Shown here: positions 6,921-24,965 of the stretch, one piece after another
Position numbering within the stretch: position 1 is the stretch's first letter
Layout: each line of letters opens with the position of its first letter
DNA from: an uncultured Bacilli bacterium
Lineage (GTDB): Bacteria > Bacillota_I > Bacilli_A > RFN20 > CAG-631
DNA: 64,000 bases
Reading direction: 5' to 3'
NCBI GenBank assembly: GCA_947626825.1
Contig: CANQTM010000002.1
Location: 52,223-116,222, forward strand
The notes under the pieces: model-generated
Databases searched by the model: none
The model's input: only the letters and a program-made list of their open reading frames with translations
Told to the model about the DNA's origin: nothing
Made by a program: the position numbers and the translations under genes

Positions 6921-8171
6921 TTAATTCTTTGACAAATATTCTGTTAAAATTCCTGTTAGTTCAAATTTTGAATTAGTAATTGCTGAATCAGTATCATATT
7001 TTGTAGCAATAGCATAATCGTTTTGAAAATTAACATATTCTATATTGCCGTTTTGTAATCCTTCTAATGTTTTATTTGAATAGTTAATTTTTCCAGTAAG
7101 TTGTACATTATCAATTTTGGTATTTTTGATTTTTTCAGCCAATGCTCCAAAATTTGCATATCTACAATTACTCATAGTGTAATCTAAAGTAAATTCAGCA
7201 TCTTTAATTATTAAATCTTTAATGTTACAATCTTCAAGTTCTTTAAATATACCACCATATGAATATGTATTACCAGAAACTCTTGATTTTTCAGTTATTG
7301 AATGCCAATTAGAAATAGTATGATTGTTTCCTAAAATAGTTTTACCAAAGATAGTTGCAGGTCTCATATAACCTTCATTTGCAAAATCAAGATCATTATT
7401 TAAATACATGTTATATAGTGCTGAATAAGAATTTATGTATGAATTGAAATCACTTGTTGTATTAATTACTTTGTATTTTCCAGCAATCATTTTAGCATAA
7501 ATTGGTAAATGAGAATCTTGTAATGTTAATACATAACTAGATGATATTTTTTCTTGCATTTCTTTATCTTTGTACATGTCAATCAAAGTATAACTACCAT
7601 TTCCATTACCATATATTTCTGTGAAATTATTATATTGAGTTTCATCAGAAATACTTGCTTGAGATACTCTATCGATATTAAATTCTGAATCCATAGCCCA
7701 TCTAATTGATGCAAGTAATGTTGGCTCTTGATTTTCTTTTTCAACATCAACATAATACAAATCAAAATATTTACCATAAATTTCATTCCAATTTGCATAA
7801 ATCGTTATATCGTCGCTTTTTTTGCCTGGTAATCGATATGTTTCAAAGTCAACTTTGTCTTTAAAATCTTTATCAAAATACCAACCTTCAAATAAATATT
7901 CGATATCTTTTTCTTTGTCTGCATCTTTAATAAATGTAAATTTTGTTTGGCTATCCAAATTGTTTTGTAAATCAGAAATTGGAGAACCTGGTTGATACAT
8001 GATTTCAAGTTTTTCAGGATTTCTATCACCAAGTTTACAATAGCCACCCATAAAATCGTAAATAACTTTTTGAGTACAATTATTAGCAACGTAAGCTGTA
8101 TTAAGTCCACAACTTGTTAGTAGCAATGAGAATAGTACACCAAAGATATAAAACTTTAATTTTTTAAACAA
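6921..8171 (-). CDS. Putative lipoprotein with InlB/Listeria-Bacteroides-repeat-like and GLUG-like segments; first gene of the opp operon
   Basis: TTG start with RBS (GAGGTGAATTAGA-TTG), lipobox 'LLTSCGLN', 'EGWYFDKDFKDKVDFETYRLPGKKSDDITIYANW' resembles an InlB B-repeat; 'YGGIFKELEDCNIKDLIIKDAEF...FGALAEKIKNTKIDNVQLTGKI' resembles GLUG repeats. Confidence 0.65.
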   Translation of the reverse strand: MFKKLKFYIFGVLFSLLLTSCGLNTAYVANNCTQKVIYDFMGGYCKLGDRNPEKLEIMYQPGSPISDLQNNLDSQTKFTFIKDADKEKDIEYLFEGWYFDKDFKDKVDFETYRLPGKKSDDITIYANWNEIYGKYFDLYYVDVEKENQEPTLLASIRWAMDSEFNIDRVSQASISDETQYNNFTEIYGNGNGSYTLIDMYKDKEMQEKISSSYVLTLQDSHLPIYAKMIAGKYKVINTTSDFNSYINSYSALYNMYLNNDLDFANEGYMRPATIFGKTILGNNHTISNWHSITEKSRVSGNTYSYGGIFKELEDCNIKDLIIKDAEFTLDYTMSNCRYANFGALAEKIKNTKIDNVQLTGKINYSNKTLEGLQNGNIEYVNFQNDYAIATKYDTDSAITNSKFELTGILTEYLSKN

Positions 8172-8208
8172 TCTAATTCACCTCTATTTCAAAGCCTACA
8201 TATAAAAT

Positions 8209-8236
8209 ATTATACATATTTATATGTAAATATCAA
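8209..8236 (-). promoter_or_regulatory. Sigma-A-like promoter for the lipoprotein-opp operon, with a palindrome in the spacer
   Basis: Minus strand TTGATA-N16-TATAAT; spacer overlaps TACATAT-TT-ATATGTA (8213-8228). Confidence 0.6.
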
Positions 8237-8277
8237 GTTATTTTTTTTAAATGGGAAATGGTCCTCTCTTTCCCAAA

Positions 8278-8303
8278 GATAAAAAAGGAGGAGAAAATCT
8301 CCT
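8278..8303 (-). terminator. Rho-independent terminator of upp
   Basis: Minus-strand hairpin AGGAGA-TTT-TCTCCT followed by a T-rich run. Confidence 0.7.
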
Positions 8304-8311
8304 GTAAATTT

Positions 8312-8941
8312 TTATTTTGTACCGAAAATTCTATCTCCTGCATCACCAAGGCCTGGAATAATATAGCCAACATCATTTAATTTTTCATCTAAAGCCGCAA
8401 GATAAACATGAACATCTGGATGAGCATCTTCTACAGCCTTAAGCCCTTCAGGTACGCCTACTAAACACATAAGTCTAACATTGTTGTAGCCTCTTTTTTT
8501 ACAAGCATCGATAGCAGCAATAGCACTTCCACCAGTAGCAAGCATTGGGTCAACAATTACTACTAATGGGTTTTCAACTTTTGGTAATTTAAAATAATAT
8601 TCAATTGGTTTAAGAGTAGTTTCATCACGATACATACCAATATGACCAATTCTTGCAGTTGGTACCATATTTTTAATACCATCACAAAGACCAATTCCTG
8701 CCCTTAAGATTGGAGCAATTATGATTTTTTGTTTTAATTTTTTTCTATGTAATTCTACACCAGTTGGTGTTTTATAAGTTTCATTAGCATCATATGTTTC
8801 TAAATCTTTAAATACTTCAAAACACATAAAAGAAGCAATTTCATTAAGGTTTTCACGAAACTCCTTTGATTTTGTTGATTCATCTCTCATAATAGAAAGT
8901 TTTACGTCAATTAATGGATGTTTAACTATTGTATGCATCAT
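8312..8941 (-). CDS. upp: Uracil phosphoribosyltransferase
   Basis: PRPP-binding motif 'VVIVDPMLATGGSAIAAI', C-terminal 'YIIPGLGDAGDRIFGTK'. ORF opens at 8971; start placed at 8941 after GGGAGG. Confidence 0.96.
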   Translation of the reverse strand: MMHTIVKHPLIDVKLSIMRDESTKSKEFRENLNEIASFMCFEVFKDLETYDANETYKTPTGVELHRKKLKQKIIIAPILRAGIGLCDGIKNMVPTARIGHIGMYRDETTLKPIEYYFKLPKVENPLVVIVDPMLATGGSAIAAIDACKKRGYNNVRLMCLVGVPEGLKAVEDAHPDVHVYLAALDEKLNDVGYIIPGLGDAGDRIFGTK

Positions 8942-20826: not shown

Positions 20827-20855
20827 TTGACATAATTTGACAAAGATGCTAGAAT
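20827..20855 (+). promoter_or_regulatory. Sigma-A-like promoter of the DUF368-PlsC operon
   Basis: TTGACA (20827-20832), 17 nt spacer, TAGAAT (20850-20855). Confidence 0.6.
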
Positions 20856-20856
20856 T

Positions 20857-20881
20857 AAATTATCTTCAAAGAAGATAATTT
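20857..20881. repeat. Perfect 11-bp inverted repeat with 3-nt centre just downstream of the -10
   Basis: AAATTATCTTC-AAA-GAAGATAATTT. Confidence 0.9.
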
Positions 20882-20891
20882 GCAAATAGTT

Positions 20892-22565
20892 ATGGAGAAA
20901 TTATTTATTTTTTTAAAGGGTATCATAATAGGATTTGTAAGTTTAGCTATTCCTGGCGTTTCTGCAAGTACAATAGCTATTTTGCTTGGTACTTATTATG
21001 CTATGATTGAAGCAATTAGTTCAATTTTTAAATGTTTTAAGAAAAGTATAAGTTTCTTAATTTTTTTAGCGTTGGGTTATGGTGTTGGCTCTTTAATTGG
21101 GGCAAATTTAATTAGTTTTATTTTTGATGAATTTCCTTTTGTGGTTGTTATGACCATTTTAGGATTTATTATAGGAACTTTACCTTCTATGATTAAAAGT
21201 TTAAAAAGTGAATTTAAAAGATTTTCAAATATTTTAATTATGGCTGCTGTTTTTGTTTTGGTTATTGCATTTTCTTTTTTAACGGCTAGTGAAAAACAAA
21301 TAACATTAAACATAAATATGCCACTAAAAGATTATATTCTTTGGATGTTTGTTGGTTTTATAACTTCTGGAACATTGGTCGTGCCAGGCCTTGATTTTGC
21401 CATAGTTTTACTTTCTTTTGGATATTATGAATCTTTTCTTAAATTATTAAGTTTTACTGATATTAAAATTTTTATAGATAATATGATTGTTTTATCAACA
21501 TATTTAGTCGCATATGGATTAGGAAGTTTCCTTATAGCAAAATTAATTAAAAAAATTATTGTAAATCATAAAATGAAAATGGATTTTGCTATTTTGGGAT
21601 TTGTTTTAGTAAGTCCTTCAATTTTGATAAAACAAAGTATTTTTCAAAATGATTATTTTAAAAATAATACTTTGCCTTTTTCTCAAATTGTTTTTGGTAT
21701 TTTTCTTTTTATAATAGCTTTTTCATTAGTTTTTATTGTTCATAAAATTAATGAAAATGATCCTAATGATACTAGAATAGAGGCTATGAAAAAAAGAAAT
21801 ATGTTGCGATTTTATTTTACTATTGCAATCCAATTCCCATTAGCAATTTATTATCTTTGCAAAATGAAAAAAATGGTCAAAAAGAATCAAGGAACTTTTG
21901 AGGAACGTTATGCCATAATAGAAAATTTAGTAAAAAGAATTAATTGGGGAGGCAATATTCACGTTAAAGTTGTAGGGGATGAAAATTTGTCTAAAAATCC
22001 CGCTTTATATGTTATTAATCATCAAGGACGTTATGATGGGATTGCTGTTTTAACTGCTTTAAAAGATTATCCTTGTTCATTTGTAGCTGAAAAAAGTCGC
22101 ATTAATTATCCATTCTATAAAGAAACTTTTGAACTTTTACATGGTGAATGGCTTGATAAAAATAATATACGTGAACAAGTAAAAGTTATTAATAATATTG
22201 GTCAAAGATTATCTAATGGTACTAGTTTTTTAGTTTTTATTGAAGGAACATATGGTAACAATGGCAATAATTTACAAGAATTTAAAAAAGGAACATTGCA
22301 TTCTGCTTATCAAAGTCATTGTTTAGTTACTCCAATAGTTTTATATGATACATATAAAGTTTTTTCTATATCATCATTAAAAAGTATTTCACCAGAAGTT
22401 CATATATTAAAACCTATTGAATATGACACTTATAAAAATTTAAGTAAAAAAGAATTTGCAGATTTATTAAAGGAACAAATGCAAGATGAAATTAATAAAA
22501 TAAATTTGCAAAAGGAAATAAAAACAGAAAGGAAAGAAGAAACAAATGAAGTACATACTATTTAA
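20892..22565 (+). CDS. Fusion protein: N-terminal DUF368 (polyprenyl-phosphate translocase-like) membrane domain and C-terminal PlsC-type acyltransferase
   Basis: N-half: polytopic with 'GFVSLAIPGVSASTIAILLGTY' and 'FITSGTLVVPGLDFAIVLLSFGYYESFL' (DUF368 pattern). C-half: acyltransferase HX4D 'NHQGRYDG' and 'FIEGTYGN'. One uninterrupted frame. Confidence 0.85.
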   Translation: MEKLFIFLKGIIIGFVSLAIPGVSASTIAILLGTYYAMIEAISSIFKCFKKSISFLIFLALGYGVGSLIGANLISFIFDEFPFVVVMTILGFIIGTLPSMIKSLKSEFKRFSNILIMAAVFVLVIAFSFLTASEKQITLNINMPLKDYILWMFVGFITSGTLVVPGLDFAIVLLSFGYYESFLKLLSFTDIKIFIDNMIVLSTYLVAYGLGSFLIAKLIKKIIVNHKMKMDFAILGFVLVSPSILIKQSIFQNDYFKNNTLPFSQIVFGIFLFIIAFSLVFIVHKINENDPNDTRIEAMKKRNMLRFYFTIAIQFPLAIYYLCKMKKMVKKNQGTFEERYAIIENLVKRINWGGNIHVKVVGDENLSKNPALYVINHQGRYDGIAVLTALKDYPCSFVAEKSRINYPFYKETFELLHGEWLDKNNIREQVKVINNIGQRLSNGTSFLVFIEGTYGNNGNNLQEFKKGTLHSAYQSHCLVTPIVLYDTYKVFSISSLKSISPEVHILKPIEYDTYKNLSKKEFADLLKEQMQDEINKINLQKEIKTERKEETNEVHTI

Positions 22566-23382
22566 TTCATTAAACAAATACCAAGGAAAGGAAGAAAAAA
22601 TCCAAGAATTAAAAAATAAATTCAATGAAGAAACTCAAACTTTGGATGTTATTTCTTTGGATTACAAGTCATTTATTGATAATTTAAAAGAAGATGACGA
22701 AGTCGTTGTTTTAGGTGGCGATGGAACTTTAAATCATATGATTAATATTATTGATTGTGATATCAAAACGCCAATTTATCTTGTACCAACAGGTACAGGA
22801 AATGATTTTTTCCGTGATGTTGTTAGTGATCCTAATGTTGACATGATTCTTTTAAATCCATATTTAACTAATCTACCAACAGTTGAAGTAAAAGGAAAAA
22901 AGCAAAAATTTATAAATGGTATTGGATTTGGTATTGATGGTTATTGTTGTGAAGTCGGCGATAAATTAAGAGCTAAATCAGACAAACCAGTTAATTATAC
23001 AAGTATTGCCATTAAAGGATTATTATTTCATTTTAAACCAGTAACTGCTAAAATAAAAATAGATGGTCAAGAATATGAATTTAAACATGTTTGGTTAGCT
23101 CCTACTATGAAAGGACGTTTTTATGGTGGAGGAATGATGATTGCTCCAAATCAAAATAGATTAAAAGATGATACTTTGTCAGTTGTGCTTTATATAAGCA
23201 AAAGCAAATTAAAAGCTTTAATGACATTTCCATCAATTTTTAAAGGCGAACATATTAAAAAAGAAAAAATGGTTAAGATATTCAAAGGCAAAACAATTGA
23301 AGTTACATTTGATCGTCCAACAGCATTACAAATAGATGGTGAAACAGTTACAGATGTTTTATCATATAAAGCATCATTATAG
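22546..23382 (+). CDS. Diacylglycerol kinase catalytic-domain (DagK/YegS-like) lipid kinase
   Basis: 'VVLGGDGTLNHMIN', 'YLVPTGTGNDFFRDV', 'FINGIGFGIDGYCCEVGDKLR'; overlaps the upstream gene by 20 nt. Confidence 0.9.
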   Translation: MKYILFNSLNKYQGKEEKIQELKNKFNEETQTLDVISLDYKSFIDNLKEDDEVVVLGGDGTLNHMINIIDCDIKTPIYLVPTGTGNDFFRDVVSDPNVDMILLNPYLTNLPTVEVKGKKQKFINGIGFGIDGYCCEVGDKLRAKSDKPVNYTSIAIKGLLFHFKPVTAKIKIDGQEYEFKHVWLAPTMKGRFYGGGMMIAPNQNRLKDDTLSVVLYISKSKLKALMTFPSIFKGEHIKKEKMVKIFKGKTIEVTFDRPTALQIDGETVTDVLSYKASL

Positions 23383-23384
23383 TA

Positions 23385-24251
23385 ATGTCTAAATTAATTC
23401 TTATAATAATTTCGTTGTTTTGTGCAAGTTTAGAAACATATTTTATACCATTAGATTTATTTTATAAAATTATTCTTTTTATTCTTTTTGCAATCATCAA
23501 TATTATTTTAGAAGTAGGTATGTTTTTATTGTTTTTTATCATAATAGAAATTCCTGTTAATAAAAACAAAGAAATATTACACTACAATCAATTTTATCGT
23601 AACATGTTATATTTTGGTACTAAAGCTTGTTTATCACTTTTTGGTATGAAAATAAATATAGATGGCTTAGAAAAAATTCCTAATGATTCTAATTTTGTAA
23701 TTGTATTTAATCATAAATCAAATTTGGATTCTATGGTGATTGATGTTTGTTTACATAAATATAAATTAGTATTTATTGCAAAAAAATCATTATTTAATAT
23801 TCCAATTGTTGGTAAGTTAATTCATCCAATTGGTTATATAAAACTTGATAGAGATAATAAACGTCAAGAAGTTTTAGCAATTAGTAAAGCAATTAATTTT
23901 TTGAAAAATGATGAATGTTCAATTGGTGTTGCTCCAGAAGGAACAAGAAATTTTACAAGCGATGTTTTATTGCCTTTTAAAGCAGGGTGTTTTCATTTAA
24001 TTACTGAATCAAAAAAACCTTTAATTATTACAACAATAACAGGAACTGAAGAAGTTAAGAAAAATTTATTTTTTAAAAGGCATTACATTAATTTTAAAAT
24101 TTTAAAAGTTTTAAACTATGAAGATTATAAAAATTTAAATTGTATAGAAATATCAAATAAAGTAAAAAGTGTTATGTTAAGTAATTTAATGAATAATGTA
24201 GATACTTTAAATAATGCTAATGAATCTTCCAAAGAAAGTGTAGAAGTTTAA
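23385..24251 (+). CDS. 1-acylglycerol-3-phosphate acyltransferase-like protein (PlsC family)
   Basis: N-terminal TM segments, 'VFNHKSNLDSMV' (HX4D), 'GVAPEGTRNFTSD'; starts 2 nt after the DagK stop. Confidence 0.9.
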   Translation: MSKLILIIISLFCASLETYFIPLDLFYKIILFILFAIINIILEVGMFLLFFIIIEIPVNKNKEILHYNQFYRNMLYFGTKACLSLFGMKINIDGLEKIPNDSNFVIVFNHKSNLDSMVIDVCLHKYKLVFIAKKSLFNIPIVGKLIHPIGYIKLDRDNKRQEVLAISKAINFLKNDECSIGVAPEGTRNFTSDVLLPFKAGCFHLITESKKPLIITTITGTEEVKKNLFFKRHYINFKILKVLNYEDYKNLNCIEISNKVKSVMLSNLMNNVDTLNNANESSKESVEV

Positions 24252-24290: not shown

Positions 24291-24965
24291 ATGAAAACAT
24301 ATGTAATTGTTTTAATTTTGATAATTTTATTAATATTAATAATAGCCCTTTTAACTTTATCATATAATCTTTCAAAAAAAGCTAAAGAACAACCACCAGA
24401 ACAACAACTAGAATATGGAAAATTATGTGAAAAATATGTAACAAAAATGCTAAATATATTATCTGCAAAATATAAATCACATCAATTTAATAATTTTATA
24501 TTTTGTGATGATAAGGGTTATTCTAGTGATATTGACCACATTTTTATTTGCCAAGGTGGTGTGTTTGTTATTGAAACTAAAGGCAATAAAGGAATTATTC
24601 ATGGTAATGTTGAAGATAGTGAATGGATTGCTCAAAAAAAGGCGTGGCAAGAAAATAAAATTCTTAAAAATCCCATTATACAAAATCAAAATCACATTAA
24701 TCATTTAAGAAATTTAATTGGAAAAAATGCACCTAAAATGTTTTCAATAGTTATTTTTGTTAATGCTGATTCTATCGAAGAAGTTAAAAGTCCAATCGTT
24801 CATAATGTAGCCACTGCTCATGATTTTATCGAAGAAGAAATTTTAAAAGAAAATTATTCTTCTGACTTTGTTGATAAAATGTATCAAAAATTAGTTCAAA
24901 TTCAAGAATGTTATGGAATAACTCCAAAAGAACATTTAAAACGAATTAATGCATTAAAAAAATAA
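24291..24965 (+). CDS. Membrane-anchored NERD (nuclease-related) domain protein
   Basis: N-terminal TM; 'SDIDHIFICQGGVFVIETKGNKGIIHGN...W' NERD core. Confidence 0.85.
   Translation: MKTYVIVLILIILLILIIALLTLSYNLSKKAKEQPPEQQLEYGKLCEKYVTKMLNILSAKYKSHQFNNFIFCDDKGYSSDIDHIFICQGGVFVIETKGNKGIIHGNVEDSEWIAQKKAWQENKILKNPIIQNQNHINHLRNLIGKNAPKMFSIVIFVNADSIEEVKSPIVHNVATAHDFIEEEILKENYSSDFVDKMYQKLVQIQECYGITPKEHLKRINALKK

Follow-up and report, generated by a model that had tools for sequence, protein, structure and literature searches.

The question raised by this locus, which lies in a window of 64,000 nt of DNA from an uncultured Bacilli bacterium, is what a DUF368 domain and a PlsC-type acyltransferase are doing within one polypeptide, and on which lipid such a protein might act. 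In PMC9876793 the DUF368 proteins so far characterised are described as candidate translocases of undecaprenyl phosphate (C55-P), and fusions of DUF368 with PAP2 and with BacA are recorded there. A first, sequence-only reading of the locus had proposed a lipid module in which DUF368 and acyltransferase are physically coupled in connection with undecaprenyl-phosphate translocation. The features with which we are concerned, all on the forward strand, are as follows.

20827..20855, +, candidate promoter just 5′ of the fusion gene, TTGACA-17-TAGAAT, 11/12 matches with TG before the -10 (consensus scan)
20892..22565, +, DUF368-PlsC1 fusion gene, 557 aa (open-frame call; Pfam PF04018 and PF01553)
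20892..21758, +, DUF368 domain of the "DFA" clade, residues ~1-289, with PGVSAST (residues 21-27) and PGLDFA (residues 165-170)
21759..22565, +, linker and PlsC1 acyltransferase domain, residues ~290-557, with HX4D at 377-382 and EGTY at 451-454 (no Arg)
22546..23382, +, lipid kinase of YegS/DagK type, forming a distinct subfamily, 278 aa (PF00781 and PF19279; alignment, tree)
23385..24251, +, PlsC2 acyltransferase, 288 aa (PF01553), with HX4D, EGTR and the Lys of the lysophosphatidic acid (LPA) phosphate site all kept

The fused protein

The fusion frame runs from 20892 to 22565 without an internal stop (with TTG at 20880, in the same frame, as an alternative start), and a Pfam search of its product returned only two domains, both above their gathering scores: PF04018 (DUF368) at residues 20-246, with 63 bits against a cut-off of 26 (E 4e-17), and PF01553 at residues 357-484, with 85.9 bits against 23 (E 3e-24). 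The single frame with both domains, the assignment of DUF368 to the N-terminal half, and the coordinates and overlaps given in the earlier reading are thus all confirmed. Neither an MFS transporter domain nor an acyl-ACP synthetase (AMP-binding) domain was found in this search. The promoter-like sequence in front of the gene scores highest among 39 sites, 36.5 being expected by chance, which makes it weak evidence.

A sample of 397 genomes from the class yielded five further full-length fusions (58, 57, 52, 47 and 42% identity), while a scan of the GTDB species genomes recovered the same five and added two more (L108 and L110) in MAGs titled Acholeplasmatales. As that scan used two peptide patterns only, the resulting total of eight genomes, comprising that of the window and seven other, separate MAGs at 42-58% identity, is a lower bound; all the carriers are gut and rumen bacteria. 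Because the seven further fusions, found elsewhere in separate assemblies, are likewise free of internal stops and can be aligned across the junction, an assembly frameshift or read artefact is ruled out, and DUF368 and PlsC are indeed joined in one natural protein. None of the papers searched was found to describe such a fusion, the three that name both DUF368 and an acyltransferase being off-topic as judged by title and abstract.

An AF2 model of the fusion (22 sequences) has a mean pLDDT of 85.5, with low confidence at residues 292-300, i.e. at the junction, and at a pTM of 0.52 it does not determine how the domains sit against each other. When this model was compared with the PDB using Foldseek, only the PlsC structure 5KYM and related acyltransferases were returned, and no DUF368 structure was matched there by sequence or by fold.

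The operon and its history

The kinase gene begins at 22546, sharing 20 nt with the fusion; PlsC2 begins at 23385, 2 nt past the kinase stop, just as had been reported; the GGDGT and PTGTGND motifs noted for the kinase are likewise both present. In common with DgkB/YegS kinases it has the DAGK_cat and YegS_C domains, GGDGT and GTGND, but it differs from them in forming a distinct, long-branch subfamily: it scores 92 bits against a cut-off of 118.65 for TIGR00147, placing it outside that subfamily model, and in the tree a long branch separates it from the ordinary DgkB-like kinase that the window genome also possesses (G000:C9). Its predicted model has a mean pLDDT of 84.1.

The arrangement of these genes is conserved. 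In seven of the eight genomes the kinase comes directly after the fusion, at a spacing between -41 and +31 nt (the L108 copy is truncated by the end of its contig), and PlsC2 follows the kinase at all six fusion loci where this can be seen; identity to the window sequences in the aligned carriers is 47-67% for the kinase and 33-53% for PlsC2. In G395 the fusion stands alone and the kinase-PlsC2 pair is on another contig, from which it follows that coupling of the two halves of the module is not obligatory. Kinase homologs were found in 125 of the 397 class genomes (E <= 1e-25), and since at 8 of 20 kinase loci the gene lies beside PlsC2 without DUF368 (L172, L173, L175, L176, L180, L181, L182, L184), the pair is the wider unit. 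A YhhN gene directly precedes the kinase in L174 (3963-4610) and L178 (3975-4628), and in L183 one (8144-8803) lies three genes away; YhhN proteins are lysoplasmalogenases (PMC9052158). As separate observations, one kinase homolog (G484:C1:629807-630646, in a genome of 0.7 Mb) contains three in-frame TGA codons, perhaps read as Trp, and in the window a gene for a NERD-domain protein (24291-24965) lies on the same strand, 39 nt past PlsC2.

Two genomes (L093/G532 and L094/G567) carry a split, unfused operon of four genes in the order PlsC2-kinase-DUF368-PlsC1, in which genes overlap or abut, and DUF368 and PlsC1, in different frames, overlap by 20-50 nt. The simplest history is that neighbouring genes of a retained operon became fused. 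The fusion does not characterise the order of the window as a whole, being present in one of the 281 genomes searched there and absent from the other 280, and in trees the window fusion and kinase group with families (f12/f23) of other orders; this grouping suggests that the window genome likely gained the module horizontally. In G002 and G003, relatives within the family, other genes follow addA, and the contig of G001 ends at that point.

Two acyltransferases with different acceptor sites

The fused acyltransferase had been described as having intact HX4D and EGT motifs. Both are literally present, the former reading NHQGRYDG, but the latter reads EGTY, so that the Arg of EGTR is missing. 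This holds generally: PlsC1 of all eight fusions retains HX4D, EG and the Pro of motif IV, while in ACYLTRANSFERASES the EGTR arginine is replaced by Tyr or His in 8/8 fusions and the Lys105-type position is not conserved. Compared with the 1-acyl-glycerol-3-phosphate acyltransferase 5KYM, therefore, PlsC1 has the same fold, the PF01553 match, HX4D and EG, but lacks the Arg that binds the LPA phosphate and does not conserve the Lys position, whereas PlsC2 has the full set of LPAAT/PlsC motifs. The earlier description of this second PlsC as complete holds in full, HX4D, the motif III Arg and the Lys105-type residue all being kept; H110/D115, K133 and R188 are invariant in the aligned carriers, and its TIGR00530 score of 96.6 is just below the cut-off of 102.95.

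For the PlsC of T. maritima it has been proposed that the phosphate of lysophosphatidic acid is held by the EGTR arginine (R159) together with K105 (PMC6688108), and SalA, a member of the LPAAT family without that Arg, is a lyso-lipid acyltransferase for a different head group (PMC8319176). Loss of the Arg, as in SalA, argues against lysophosphatidic acid as the acceptor of PlsC1, which would then be some other molecule, although the loss does not itself name which. The same NHQG[KR]YDG / EGxY pattern is found in most of the lone PlsC1-like proteins of Lachnospiraceae, Butyrivibrio and Treponema; inspection by eye of their gene neighbours in Lachnospiraceae and Treponema revealed no obvious recurring lipid gene. 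The idea that the module is the sole route to phosphatidic acid is unsupported, as the window genome has plsY as well as PlsC and kinase genes outside the module.

A divergent DUF368 clade and its setting

In a tree of 50 DUF368 domains, 15 module-type sequences are split from the rest by a branch with SH-aLRT 100, and all 15 share PG[VL]SAST and PGxDFA. The DFA motif occurs in no ordinary DUF368 examined; most of these read PGxSGG or PGxSGS, followed by PGxSGS or PGxSAT. Thus the PG motifs reported for both halves of the domain are there, but their signature forms are altered, the PopT-type PGxSGG / PGxSGS having been replaced, and against the PopT equivalog model NF052563 the fusion scores 70.5 bits where the cut-off is 400. 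Most carriers have an ordinary DUF368 beside the module, the exceptions, in which none was seen, being G461 (87% complete) and G567 (65%); that of the window genome is located beside infB, in synteny with its counterpart in the genus-mate G001. Some other DUF368 architectures were encountered: an ordinary-type domain that continues in frame into an RsuA/RluB-like S4/RNA pseudouridine synthase in two genomes (G047 and G048; L035:4057-5700, L036:4108-5736), two tandem DUF368 matches on one strand (G107:C139:16212-18068), and a DUF368 with an N-terminal extension of ~100 residues (L037:3894-5180).

Searching with TIGR00445 (E <= 0.001) gave no match to mraY in the fusion carriers G340 (97% complete), G502 (84%), G623 and G624, in the split-operon genomes G532 (95%, with 6% contamination) and G567 (65%), or in G555, which carries a DFA-type DUF368. 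The window genome, G461 and G395 do have the gene, and G449 has a shorter match below the cut-off. For uppS, none was found in G502 and G624, and it is present in the other carriers. All the carriers being MAGs, these absences are suggestive only. In L110 (2816-13328) the order is rpsB-tsf-pyrH-frr-[fusion-kinase-PlsC2]-small ORF-cdsA-dxr-rseP (rpsB, tsf and rseP named by eye), and the module likewise follows frr in L108 (1895-5493), where the contig ends inside the kinase. The slot between frr and cdsA is usually occupied by uppS, which was not found in the genome of L110.

What the module may do

The reading we favour, at a probability of about 0.4, is that this is a glycerolipid salvage module resembling LplT-Aas in function, with the kinase and PlsC2 making phosphatidic acid. 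The DUF368 domain would flip a lysolipid, or a glycerolipid that has been deacylated in part, out of the outer leaflet and into the inner, where PlsC1, tethered at its cytoplasmic end, would re-acylate it (the acceptor not being lysophosphatidic acid); the kinase would phosphorylate mono- or diacylglycerol released when lipids are broken down, and PlsC2 would acylate the resulting lysophosphatidic acid to phosphatidic acid, for use by CdsA. Substrate, direction of transport, acyl acceptor and order of the pathway are all points that we infer. Taken together, a transporter clade with altered motifs, an acyltransferase tethered to it whose acceptor site is changed, a lipid kinase and a PlsC with standard motifs fit salvage better than they fit recycling of a carrier lipid, and the position of cdsA after the module and of YhhN beside the kinase in relatives points to glycerolipids or lysolipids. 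Against this, most of the carriers lacking mraY keep uppS, and a polyprenyl-phosphate pool may exist in them.

That last point belongs to the alternative from which the sequence-only reading started, namely that DUF368 here is a polyprenyl- or undecaprenyl-phosphate translocase, the acyltransferases and kinase serving carrier-lipid or phospholipid recycling. Its proposal of a lipid module with DUF368 and acyltransferase physically coupled has gained from the repeated fusion and the conservation of the operon, whereas the undecaprenyl-phosphate part has been weakened, because the clade and its motifs are divergent, most carriers have an ordinary DUF368 as well, and there are carriers without detectable mraY, two of them also without uppS. 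A PF04018 match above the gathering score, the precedents of candidate C55-P translocases and of PAP2 and BacA fusions (PMC9876793), the presence of uppS in most carriers and the frr-cdsA position in L110 do speak for such a coupling, but with the PopT-type motifs replaced and so low a PopT score it is possible but less likely than glycerolipid salvage, and we regard it as improbable.

DgkB recycles the diacylglycerol produced in lipoteichoic acid synthesis, and a kinase of YegS/DgkB type, the position of the L110 module just before cdsA and the absence of phosphate-binding residues from PlsC1 would all suit a module for recycling diacylglycerol or phosphatidic acid after surface lipoglycan or lipoteichoic acid synthesis. 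DUF368 would then return diacylglycerol, phosphatidic acid or a glycolipid inward, the kinase would produce phosphatidic acid, and PlsC1 would acylate a glycolipid or glycerol. We consider this rather unlikely, as the window genome already has a separate, ordinary DgkB-like kinase, which stands apart from the module kinase in the tree, and the choice of an acyltransferase as the fused partner is left unexplained. Finally, it might be that overlapping neighbours have simply run together and that each domain acts alone, with no coupling function: a single indel would suffice to fuse split genes that overlap by 20-50 nt in different frames, and elsewhere an ordinary DUF368 is fused to an RNA pseudouridine synthase that is quite unrelated. 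The fused state has nevertheless been kept in eight genomes whose identity falls as low as 42%, with a junction that can still be aligned, and the partners stay adjacent even when unfused, making an accident of this kind improbable.

Relation to known systems

Glycerolipid salvage has a precedent in the LplT-Aas complex of E. coli, which flips and re-acylates its substrate and whose two components are fused in some bacteria (PMC11416262). The common element is a PlsC-family acyltransferase physically linked to a membrane transporter; the differences are that the transporter here is DUF368 rather than MFS, that there is no acyl-ACP synthetase (AMP-binding) domain, that the operon includes a kinase and a second PlsC, and that the hosts are Bacilli/Acholeplasmatales-type genomes rather than Gram-negatives. 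By analogy, then, the module may work like LplT-Aas, but it is not a member of that system. With PopT / VCA0040, the polyprenyl-phosphate transporter, the fused DUF368 shares its PF04018 family and a PG motif in both halves, but it belongs to a separate clade with PG[VL]SAST/PGxDFA, has a PlsC partner and coexists with ordinary DUF368. The DUF368-PAP2 and DUF368-BacA proteins of PMC9876793 likewise join DUF368 to a lipid-acting enzyme, there a C55-PP phosphatase and here an acyltransferase.

Sensitivity to lysophospholipids is reported for Gram-positive and for wall-deficient cells (PMC9052158), and a salvage module would accordingly be useful in gut and rumen. Tentatively, one branch of DUF368 may have left polyprenyl phosphate behind to become a lysolipid or glycerolipid flippase hard-wired to an acyltransferase, and so a counterpart of LplT-Aas that evolved independently in Gram-positive and possibly wall-less cells. 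Lysophospholipid uptake transporters outside Gram-negatives were left open by the authors of PMC11416262, and the fusion is a concrete candidate for such a role. That a clade of altered motif, fused to an acyltransferase, is kept where mraY was not detected suggests that the DUF368 family carries lipids besides C55-P, and the ordinary and DFA-type proteins within one genome form a natural pair for mapping substrate choice.
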